Part shown: positions 57,993-60,940 of the stretch, in pieces | How positions within the stretch are numbered: the stretch's first letter is position 1 | Layout: each line of letters begins with the position of its first letter | NCBI GenBank assembly: GCA_021734075.1 | Contig: JAIPJW010000005.1 | Location: 1-64,000 of the forward strand | DNA: 64,000 nt | Direction: 5' to 3' | Source of the DNA: Cephaloticoccus sp. | GTDB taxonomy: Bacteria > Verrucomicrobiota > Verrucomicrobiia > Opitutales > Opitutaceae | Notes under the pieces: generated by a model | What the model saw: only the letters and a program-made list of their open reading frames with translations | Database searches by the model: none | Told to the model about the DNA's origin: nothing | Translations under genes and position numbers: made by a program

Positions 57993-59027
57993 TCAGCTCG
58001 TGGGCACGGACTGGATCGTCTTCAGGATACGACCGGCCACCAAGTAAGGATCGGCCGCGGAATTCGGACGGCGATCCTCAAGGTAACCCTTGTAGCCACT
58101 GTTGATGAAACTGTGCGGGATGCGAATGGACGCGCCACGATCCGCCAGCCCGAAGGTAAACTTGTCGATGGACTGGGTCTCATGCAGTCCGGTCAGGCGC
58201 ATGTGATTGTCCGGCCCATAAACGGCGATATGCTCGTCCATGTTTTTGCTGAATGCCGCCATGAGCTGCTCGAAGTAGGCTTTACCGCCGACTTCGCGCA
58301 TGTGTTCGGTGGAAAAATTCGCATGCATACCGGAACCGTTCCAATCGAGCGGCTTGTTGAATGCACCACGGATGGGTTTGCATTGCCACTCAATATCCAA
58401 GCCATAGGCCTCACCCAGTCGTGCAAGGATGTAGCGAGCCACCCACATCTGGTCGGCCGCTTTTCGTGAGCCCTTGCCAAAGATCTGGAATTCCCACTGA
58501 CCCTTGGCGACTTCGGCATTGATGCCCTCGAGATTGATGCCGGCATCGAGACAAATATCGATGTGCTTCTCCACCACCTCGCGGGCCACACAGCCGACGC
58601 TGCTGTAACCCACGCCGGTGTAGTAGGGACCTTGGGGACCGGGAAACCCGCCGGGAGGGAACCCAAGTGGTGCGCCGTCCTTGTAAAAGAAGTATTCCTG
58701 TTCAAAACCGAACCAGGCATCAGCGGCATCGGGGATGGAGGCCCGGCTGTTGGACGGATGTGGAGTCTTGCCGTCCGGCATCATGACTTCGCTCATTACG
58801 AGCACCCCGTTCTTGCGCGTGCTGTCCGGAAAGACCGCCACGGGTTTCAGCATGCAGTCAGAACTCTTGCCCTCCGCCTGTTGGGTCGAGCTGCCGTCGA
58901 AGCCCCACATGGGAAGTTCTTCGAGCTTGGGAAAGCTGGCGAATTCCTTGATTTGAGTTTTGCTGCGCATGCCAGCCAACGGCGTGTAGCCGTCCAGCCA
59001 GATGTATTCGAGTTTGAATTTAGCCAT
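57993..59027 (-). CDS. glnII: Glutamine synthetase type II (eukaryotic-like, GlnII)
   Basis: About 344 aa; WGFDGSSTQQAEGKSSDCMLKPVAVFPD, WFGFEQEYFF, WNGSGMHANFSTEHMR, DRGASIRIP. Confidence 0.93.
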   Translation of the reverse strand: MAKFKLEYIWLDGYTPLAGMRSKTQIKEFASFPKLEELPMWGFDGSSTQQAEGKSSDCMLKPVAVFPDSTRKNGVLVMSEVMMPDGKTPHPSNSRASIPDAADAWFGFEQEYFFYKDGAPLGFPPGGFPGPQGPYYTGVGYSSVGCVAREVVEKHIDICLDAGINLEGINAEVAKGQWEFQIFGKGSRKAADQMWVARYILARLGEAYGLDIEWQCKPIRGAFNKPLDWNGSGMHANFSTEHMREVGGKAYFEQLMAAFSKNMDEHIAVYGPDNHMRLTGLHETQSIDKFTFGLADRGASIRIPHSFINSGYKGYLEDRRPNSAADPYLVAGRILKTIQSVPTS

Positions 59028-59230
59028 ATCGGTTAGGTTTGGTTTAACAGGGTTTTTGCTACAATCACCGCGGAAACACCCATGAGAATGGCACCGAAGT
59101 GAAATGTAAAATCACGAATTGTAGAGCACCTTATGTGCCAGCAGCCGAATGAAATCTGTCATTACGGAAATTTCTACCTCAAATTACTCAAGTCATTGCC
59201 CTCCAATATTCAAGGAAAACAAAGTCACCC

Positions 59231-59695
59231 TTGCCACTCAACGGGACAATGCCATTCTCGAACCAGTATTTCCGCTTCATGCCTGATATCAAAGACACCA
59301 AACGAGCATTGGTCCGCATCGGATATGATGGAACCGTGCAAAAAACGTTTCGCGGACATGACAAGGAAAGGCGTTTTGCCAACGAAATCCGGATCTTGCG
59401 ACATCTAGAGTCGCGGGGCTGCGATTTCGTTCCCCGCCTACTGAAAAGCGATCCCGAGCAACTTAAAATCATCACCACCAGTTGCGGTTCACGGGTCGAG
59501 CACATCGGTGAGGAAAAGCTGAAAAGCCTGTTTGGGGAATTGGAGGCCTACGGGGTCCGCCACGATGATCCGTATGTGCGCAATGTGACCTACCGCAAAG
59601 AGGACGGTCGCTTTTGCCTGATCGATTTCGAACACGCCATCTTGCTCGATGAGCCGACGCCAGCAACCGCCCCGAGTGACGGCCCGACCCCCTGA
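59231..59695 (+). CDS. Miniature protein-kinase-like (Bud32/RIO-type core) protein
   Basis: 154 aa; candidate VQKTF Lys, RFANEIRILRHLES helix-C Glu, RHDDPYVRNVTYR (HxDxxxxN), FCLIDFEHA (DFG-like). Confidence 0.6.
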   Translation: MPLNGTMPFSNQYFRFMPDIKDTKRALVRIGYDGTVQKTFRGHDKERRFANEIRILRHLESRGCDFVPRLLKSDPEQLKIITTSCGSRVEHIGEEKLKSLFGELEAYGVRHDDPYVRNVTYRKEDGRFCLIDFEHAILLDEPTPATAPSDGPTP

Positions 59696-59727
59696 ATAAA
59701 ATTTCCACGCAACCTACACCCCCCCGC

Positions 59728-60582
59728 TTGCATGCCCCGGACCTGCGTTGGTCCGGTCTGACCCATAAGGGAAAAGTCAGGCCGAACAACGAGGATGCCT
59801 TTCTCGGCCTCTGTTTTGAAGGGCACGATGTGCGTTATCTGGGCAAGACCGGGGAGGCCTCGGTCAGCAATGCTGATTTTGTCTTTGCCGTCAGCGACGG
59901 TATGGGTGGTGCGCAATCGGGTGAGTTCGCCAGCCGCATAACCATTGAAAAACTATCCCACTGGCTGCCCAAAAGCTTTCAGATGTCCGCTCTGGGTGTT
60001 GCGGTCAACCAAACCGAATTACTCGTTGAGGTGTTTCATTCCATTCATGGGGAACTGCTCAATTTGAGTCGGAGTTACGAGGAATGCCGTGGCATGGGCA
60101 CGACCCTGAGCATGTGCTGGTTCACCCCCGAACGGGTGTATTTCGGCCACATTGGCGACAGCCGTATCTATCATTTGCCCAAATCGGGCGACATGCATCA
60201 ACTCACCCACGATCACACCCACACCGGTTGGTTGCGGCGCAAGGGTCAAATTAATGAACGTGAAGCCCGTTCGCATCCCATGCGACATTCCCTGAACCAA
60301 GCCTTGGGCACCGGTCGCCAAATCGTCGAGCCCCAGGTCGGTGCCGTCGTTTATGAACCGGGCGATCGCTTTTTGCTCTGCTCCGATGGCCTGACAGACG
60401 GTCTATGGGATCGCCACCTCGATGAGTTTGCCCGTCTGCCCAATCCTGACGAAACCGGCCGCAATCCGGCCCAGCGTCTGATTGACGAATCCCTCGAACG
60501 CTCGGGGCGGGACAACCTCACTGCGATGGTCATCGAAACCAACCGGGCCGCCTCCCTTCCCCCGCAAATGCCAACGTCGTGA
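59728..60582 (+). CDS. PP2C-family serine/threonine phosphatase
   Basis: GKVRPNNEDAFLG, VFAVSDGMGGAQSGEFAS, GMGTTLSMCWFTPERVYFGHIGDSRIY, FLLCSDGLTDGL, RDNLTAMVIE. Start non-ATG (TTG 59728 or upstream). Confidence 0.92.
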   Translation: MHAPDLRWSGLTHKGKVRPNNEDAFLGLCFEGHDVRYLGKTGEASVSNADFVFAVSDGMGGAQSGEFASRITIEKLSHWLPKSFQMSALGVAVNQTELLVEVFHSIHGELLNLSRSYEECRGMGTTLSMCWFTPERVYFGHIGDSRIYHLPKSGDMHQLTHDHTHTGWLRRKGQINEREARSHPMRHSLNQALGTGRQIVEPQVGAVVYEPGDRFLLCSDGLTDGLWDRHLDEFARLPNPDETGRNPAQRLIDESLERSGRDNLTAMVIETNRAASLPPQMPTS

Positions 60583-60583
60583 A

Positions 60584-60940
60584 ATGAACCCGATTTTCGT
60601 CTACGGCACCTTGAAACGTGGCGGGCGCTATCACTCCTATCTGGCCGGGCAACAGTTCCTCACCACCGCCTGCACAATCGCCGGTCACACTTTGTATCAA
60701 CCGGCTGACTATCCTGCGATGGTATTGGATGATACCGACCGCAAAGGCGTGACGGGTGAAGTATGGCAGGTAAACGCAGCATGTCTGCAAGCACTTGACC
60801 AACTGGAAGGGGTGCATGAACACCTCTACGCCCGAAAGCCGGTTAAACTGGTTCCACCTCATGCCGAACTCACCGTGGAGTCGTATTTCTATTTAAGACC
60901 GGTCACAGGCCACCCGCATCTGGGCTCAACCTGGCCTTGA
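60584..60940 (+). CDS. Gamma-glutamylcyclotransferase (GGCT)-like protein
   Basis: NPIFVYGTLKRGGRYHSYL, GEVWQVNAACLQALDQLEG. Confidence 0.9.
   Translation: MNPIFVYGTLKRGGRYHSYLAGQQFLTTACTIAGHTLYQPADYPAMVLDDTDRKGVTGEVWQVNAACLQALDQLEGVHEHLYARKPVKLVPPHAELTVESYFYLRPVTGHPHLGSTWP

Follow-up and report, generated by a model that had tools for sequence, protein, structure and literature searches.

Introduction

GlnE is dedicated to modifying a glutamine synthetase (GS) covalently and reversibly; it acts on GSI as a nucleotidyltransferase (adenylyltransferase/removase). In pairs of the PrkC/PrpC type, which combine a Hanks kinase with Stp1, the kinase gene adjoins a PP2C gene. AceK exerts kinase and phosphatase control over one metabolic enzyme, isocitrate dehydrogenase, and a single kinase scaffold performs both reactions (PMC6591243). 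In Sinorhizobium, GSII has been described as controlled mainly at the transcriptional level, with additional translational inhibition by GstI, which blocks GSII translation (PMC8829014). The RNA kinase ArkI carries HGQ in place of the HxD motif and a conserved YKR motif within a long C-terminal helix, and bacterial homologues of it exist (PMC9095486).

Here, we describe a miniature kinase-like protein and a PP2C-type phosphatase encoded beside a type II GS (GSII) in Cephaloticoccus sp.; the 64,000-nucleotide stretch of DNA that was analyzed is hereafter termed the window. The system resembles GlnE and AceK in role, a role proposed by analogy, and is a member of neither. Whereas GlnE transfers nucleotidyl groups to GSI, the pair is made up of a kinase with a PP2C and tracks GSII; in the genomes checked here, clear GlnE turned up solely where GSI is encoded. 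Some loci encode the pair as one polypeptide, reminiscent of AceK; however, two unrelated domains are involved, usually from two genes, and the PP2C domain remains separate even in the fusions. Unlike in PrkC/PrpC-type pairs, the kinase is not of the Hanks type, has no sensor or membrane part, and is accompanied by a PP2C scoring below the Stp1 equivalog cut-off. ArkI (AQ578 family, COG2112) offers the closest solved fold and shares the DFE motif, but the kinase described here lacks its HGQ and YKR helix and is partnered with PP2C rather than KptA. The rhizobial glnII-gstI locus likewise places a nitrogen-controlled GSII gene beside a divergent small regulator (DUF2735 in L133 and L134), but kinase and PP2C are both missing from it. 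Our literature searches, which most subscription papers lay beyond, found neither an earlier description of this system nor a dedicated covalent modifier of any bacterial GSII.

A conserved miniature kinase-like protein is encoded in a pair with a PP2C-type phosphatase

The initial annotation had assigned a 154-amino-acid protein with kinase catalytic motifs to positions 59231..59695 (+). Inspection of the window sequence confirmed that this frame is open and that the motifs are in place, although the protein itself proved shorter. Homologues were present in 51 of 76 relatives, at 45–80% identity, and the methionine at ATG 59279 was kept in all 81 aligned homologues, indicating a kinase of 138 rather than 154 amino acids; the in-frame starts upstream, ATG 59249 and TTG 59231, showed no conservation. 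In the numbering of the shorter protein, K22, E36, H95, D97, N102, D116 and E118 were invariant (87/87 homologues), and F117 of the DFE motif was present in 86 of the 87. On these sequence comparisons, the gene is taken to encode a genuine, conserved kinase-like protein. Elsewhere, a second, divergent copy with 45% identity to the window kinase was observed in genome G016 (L047), where PP2C and GSII were not nearby. A tblastn search for phage or plasmid relatives of the window kinase returned none; the protein matches the phage kinase profile phrog_3297 ('kinase', PHROGs) at 33.5 bits.

Table 1 Features of the GSII-kinase-PP2C locus in the window.
Feature	Position	Strand	Evidence and remarks
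Type II glutamine synthetase (GSII/GlnII type), 344 aa	57993..59027	-	Divergent from kinase; profile and structure matches, identity
Sigma-54 (-24/-12) promoter-like element TGGCACATAAGGTGCT	59125..59140	-	Toward GSII, 113 bp before its start
Miniature kinase, 138 aa	59279..59695	+	Core K22, E36, H95-x-D97, N102, D116-F-E; conservation and predicted fold
PP2C-type phosphatase	59692..60582	+	PF13672 67.2 bits, cut-off 24; metal-site motifs conserved
Gamma-glutamylcyclotransferase-family (GGACT/AIG2-like, GGCT) gene	60584..60940	+	PF06094 76.7 bits

The PP2C frame had been noted to reach the kinase stop codon without an ATG start, and it does so: the frame is open from 59680, runs across the TGA that ends the kinase (59693–59695) and contains no ATG ahead of the conserved core. 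Because 19 relatives carry an ATGA overlap where the window reads CTGA at position 59692, the CTG at that position appears to be the likeliest PP2C start, with TTG 59728 as an alternative. Overlaps of the NTGA type were found at 29 of 81 loci, and several loci with a CTGA overlap have an in-frame ATG shortly downstream. At 14 of the 81 loci, including L036, L038–L043 and L045, kinase and PP2C form a single open reading frame. The pairing of kinase and PP2C, first noted in the window alone, proved strongly conserved. The PP2C metal-site motifs (D35, D69-G70, G155-D156, D232-G233 and D274) were conserved across 82 homologues, and a model of the fusion protein (5 sequences, pLDDT 74) was too weak for judging the domain interface.

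Assignment of the window PP2C to the Stp1/IreP family (NF033484) was rejected at 180.9 bits against an equivalog cut-off of 230. The PADLOC candidate-defence model PDC-M21C matched it with an E-value of 8e-11, which probably reflects the general PP2C domain. One kinase-PP2C fusion, located behind GSII in L036, lies on a contig labelled Planctomycetota, reflecting either inter-phylum transfer or a mislabelled or mixed assembly. The GGCT gene, previously reported 1 nt after the PP2C, indeed begins one base past its stop codon and is probably co-transcribed with the pair; it was rejected as a core member, since it was detected next to the pair in no more than some members of the window's family.

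The kinase is predicted to adopt a reduced protein kinase fold

An AlphaFold2 model of the kinase (11 sequences; pLDDT 87, pTM 0.78) comprised, in order, N-terminal strands, αC, two strands, αE, the catalytic loop, two strands and a disordered tail. The modelled chain stops soon after DFE, with no helix beyond it, in agreement with the earlier remark that almost no room is left for a C-lobe. As modelled, the protein is a kinase fold cut down to the N-lobe and the catalytic part of the C-lobe. A Foldseek search of the PDB yielded 154 matches at E ≤ 0.001, and the 50 listed were all kinases or kinase-containing entries; the top match was ArkI (8yv5; E 1.4e-6, TM 0.66 by query), and RIO2, PRPK/Bud32 and CK2 also ranked high. 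The structure prediction that had been suggested as a check on the kinase reading returned a kinase fold. The hallmarks of protein-kinase-like proteins, namely the Lys, the αC Glu, HxD with an Asn five residues on, and the metal-binding Asp, were found in 87/87 homologues.

Profile searches against Pfam, NCBIfam and PHROGs gave partial or weak matches throughout. The Kdo/WaaP profile PF06293 scored 23.3 bits against a cut-off of 21.3, spanning 39 residues only, and was matched by 8 of 14 members at E 0.01. Membership of Bud32, the KEOPS kinase, was rejected on a profile score of 20.6 bits against a curated cut-off of 125; no gene of the Kae1/TsaD type was noticed next to the kinase. Membership of the ArkI (AQ578) family was rejected on two grounds: HxD is present in 87/87 homologues instead of HGQ, and the YKR motif and helix α7 are absent, no helix being modelled after DFE. 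Bud32/PRPK, RIO and Kdo/WaaP kinases resemble the protein in fold, and the Bud32 and Kdo profiles are also weakly similar to it; however, the kinase has fewer than 140 residues compared with at least 171 among the solved matches listed, scores far under the Bud32 cut-off and sits in an unlike gene context.

Kinase, PP2C and GSII form one evolutionary unit

The initial annotation had proposed a minimal kinase-phosphatase switch as one reading of the locus. The modelled kinase fold and the PP2C pairing support this in part, but it missed a third component, the divergently encoded GSII. Residues 4–336 of this protein align with the bacterial GSII 4bax, and it also aligns over nearly its full length with eukaryotic GS; its identity to rhizobial and methylobacterial GSII is 72–76%, and it is the sole GS found in the window's genome assembly. 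A -24/-12 element near the consensus TGGCAY-N5-KTGCT lies approximately 90–137 bp ahead of the GSII start in nearly all regions. Counting elements that scored 10 or more, we found it toward GSII in 63 of 64 distinct divergent intergenic regions, compared with a mean of 18 and a maximum of 25 in shuffles; RpoN is also encoded. This conserved element, together with RpoN, suggests that GSII is likely nitrogen-regulated at transcription. Sigma-54 promoters toward the kinase showed no excess over shuffles in the divergent regions scanned, and no Rfam elements were found in the GSII-kinase intergenic region.

In a sample of 338 genomes from the phylum, 64 carried the kinase (scored at E<1e-40), 71 carried GSII and 67 the PP2C ortholog. 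All 64 kinase genomes fell within both the GSII set and the PP2C ortholog set, in line with the conserved co-occurrence with PP2C for which a neighbourhood survey had been proposed. The exceptions, which are 7 genomes of the GSII-only kind and 3 PP2C matches of weak score (E 1e-31 to 1e-33), all lay outside the window's class. At least 20 genomes of that class, some of them of the window's family, had none of the three genes. Fisher's test of kinase and GSII co-occurrence gave p 1.4e-61, a figure that takes no account of descent. The best DnaX tree, covering 49 genomes, showed 10 changes of the triad label, at least 6 of them on supported branches; at every change, the three genes were gained or lost jointly (six of six independent pairs, p 0.031). 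Collectively, kinase, PP2C and GSII are one evolutionary unit.

The distance between kinase and GSII was under 3 kb in 50 of the 64 genomes; in the remaining 14, the two genes co-occurred without being adjacent. The commonest order was divergent GS<>kinase-PP2C. Other arrangements included GS>kinase-PP2C (L036, L040–L042, L044), kinase-PP2C>GS (L125–L129), kinase-PP2C with GS elsewhere (L111/L112, L113/L130, L119/L120, L123/L124), and GS<>PP2C in which the kinase lies apart, downstream of a gene for an MgtE transporter (L102/L101, L104/L103, L106/L105 and others); in G374, all three genes were apart. These several orders, unlinked cases included, indicate that the co-occurrence does not stem from inherited linkage alone. 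In the family in which the kinase gene is split from PP2C, the kinase was retained with complete motifs. In this family, the lone kinase, split from GSII as well, lies directly behind the MgtE magnesium transporter gene (L101, L103, L105, L108, L109, L110, L118, L122), which a Pfam match in L103 confirmed as MgtE; the signal could thus include Mg2+.

At the syntenic locus in two genomes of one genus (L184:4336-6639 and L186:3783-6083), a single GSIII gene of 767 amino acids replaces the whole GSII-kinase-PP2C-GGCT block (57993..60940 in the window). The flanks match those of the window, with FecR-like and O-antigen ligase-like genes on one side and DnaX, two small proteins and a sigma factor on the other, and the same replacement was visible on the DnaX side of L185. 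In a check of 28 genomes, every genome lacking the triad carried GSIII- or GSI-length frames, save three GSII-only genomes outside the class. Two of the 11 genomes examined for GlnE, the GSI-bearing G021 and G067, encode a clear two-domain form of it, and no clear GlnE was found in the GSII-only genomes among these 11, the window's genome included. The search of the GSII-only genomes gave at most short weak matches within frames of ~950 amino acids, which we infer to be GlnD-like proteins. In one genome with GlnE, a GSI gene adjoins the PP2C-kinase-GSII cluster (L013, G021:C1:3177279-3181316).

Discussion

With the tie to the adjoining GSII gene, what had been a generic 'switch' becomes a specific hypothesis on nitrogen assimilation: given its joint inheritance with one GS type within a verrucomicrobial class, the pair is probably an undescribed on/off switch for this process. 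We consider it very probable that the pair is functionally dedicated to GSII. On the sequence evidence, kinase and PP2C would, with somewhat better than even probability, act as the writer and the eraser in a reversible phosphorylation cycle that controls GSII; whether GSII itself is the direct substrate is an evenly balanced matter. In this scheme, the kinase would be active and would phosphorylate GSII or, less likely, a protein controlling GSII, and PP2C would remove this phosphorylation. The balance between the two enzymes would track nitrogen or energy status, and the pair would add a post-translational layer atop the likely transcriptional control of GSII.

In favor of this reading, we count the sharing of the three genes by 64 of 338 genomes, their joint changes, the varied gene orders, the retention of the trio even without linkage, the fusions, the GSIII replacement and the GSIII or GSI of most genomes that lack the triad among those checked, together with the invariant catalytic residues in both enzymes, the sigma-54 element on GSII, the encoded RpoN and the GlnE pattern. 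Against it stand the RNA kinase ArkI as the closest solved fold, the rhizobial GSII, which is 72–75% identical and whose locus encodes neither kinase nor PP2C, and the comparison of 84 linked with 10 unlinked GSII sequences, in which no Ser, Thr or Tyr was specific to kinase-linked GSII. A generally conserved site, phosphorylated only where the kinase exists, would be compatible with this last result.

The missing GSII-specific phosphosite would also fit a pair that serves nitrogen signaling through another substrate, such as PII, GlnD or an NtrC-type activator, with the amount or inhibition of GSII controlled indirectly. PII occurs in 10 of 11 genomes checked, and the promoter-like element on GSII points to transcription as a control point; yet genomes lacking the pair (G048, G010) encode PII and RpoN too, so that neither of these tracks it, whereas GSII does, and we regard this explanation as unlikely. 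The initial annotation had also raised a pseudokinase controlling the phosphatase. Such an adaptor, perhaps ATP-sensing, would regulate or target PP2C, which alone would act, on a site phosphorylated by another kinase. The nearly absent C-lobe, with nothing past DFE able to form an activation segment in the model, and the frequent fusion to PP2C would accord with it, but the invariance of K, E, H, D, N and D in 87 homologues does not support it, and one family keeps a kinase with full motifs away from PP2C; we consider it rather improbable.

An ArkI-like RNA kinase acting on tRNA or glnII mRNA is suggested by the best solved fold match, the common DFE and the bacterial occurrence of ArkI homologues (PMC9095486). 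It is improbable, however, because HxD is invariant where ArkI has HGQ, the chain ends soon after DFE without the YKR helix, and the partner and fusion mate belongs to a protein phosphatase family and is not KptA. The APH profile gave weak matches in 14 of 14 members scanned (best E 3.6e-9), as might be expected of a small-molecule kinase that phosphorylates a metabolite connected with glutamine metabolism; nevertheless, these matches lie mostly over the catalytic loop region, the window kinase falls below the cut-off, no room exists for a substrate-binding insert and the partner is a PP2C, making this very improbable. That the genes are merely neighbours inherited together, with no functional link, is hardly credible at all: the divergent arrangement common to most loci shows that linkage is partly inherited, but the co-occurrence holds in the non-adjacent genomes and rearranged orders, and at least six joint changes were independent.

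Returning to control of GSII by phosphorylation, we see about equal chances for and against the full picture, in which verrucomicrobial GSII is under a dedicated phosphorylation cycle, run by a kinase that would rank among the smallest active ones known and that is paired or fused with a PP2C, as a parallel to GlnE in covalent GS control that is swapped whole when the GS type changes. If true, this would add another mode to the covalent control of GS and would explain how ammonium assimilation is adjusted in GSII-only bacteria without GlnE. It would also provide a kinase of fewer than 140 residues with which to ask how little C-lobe a working kinase needs.
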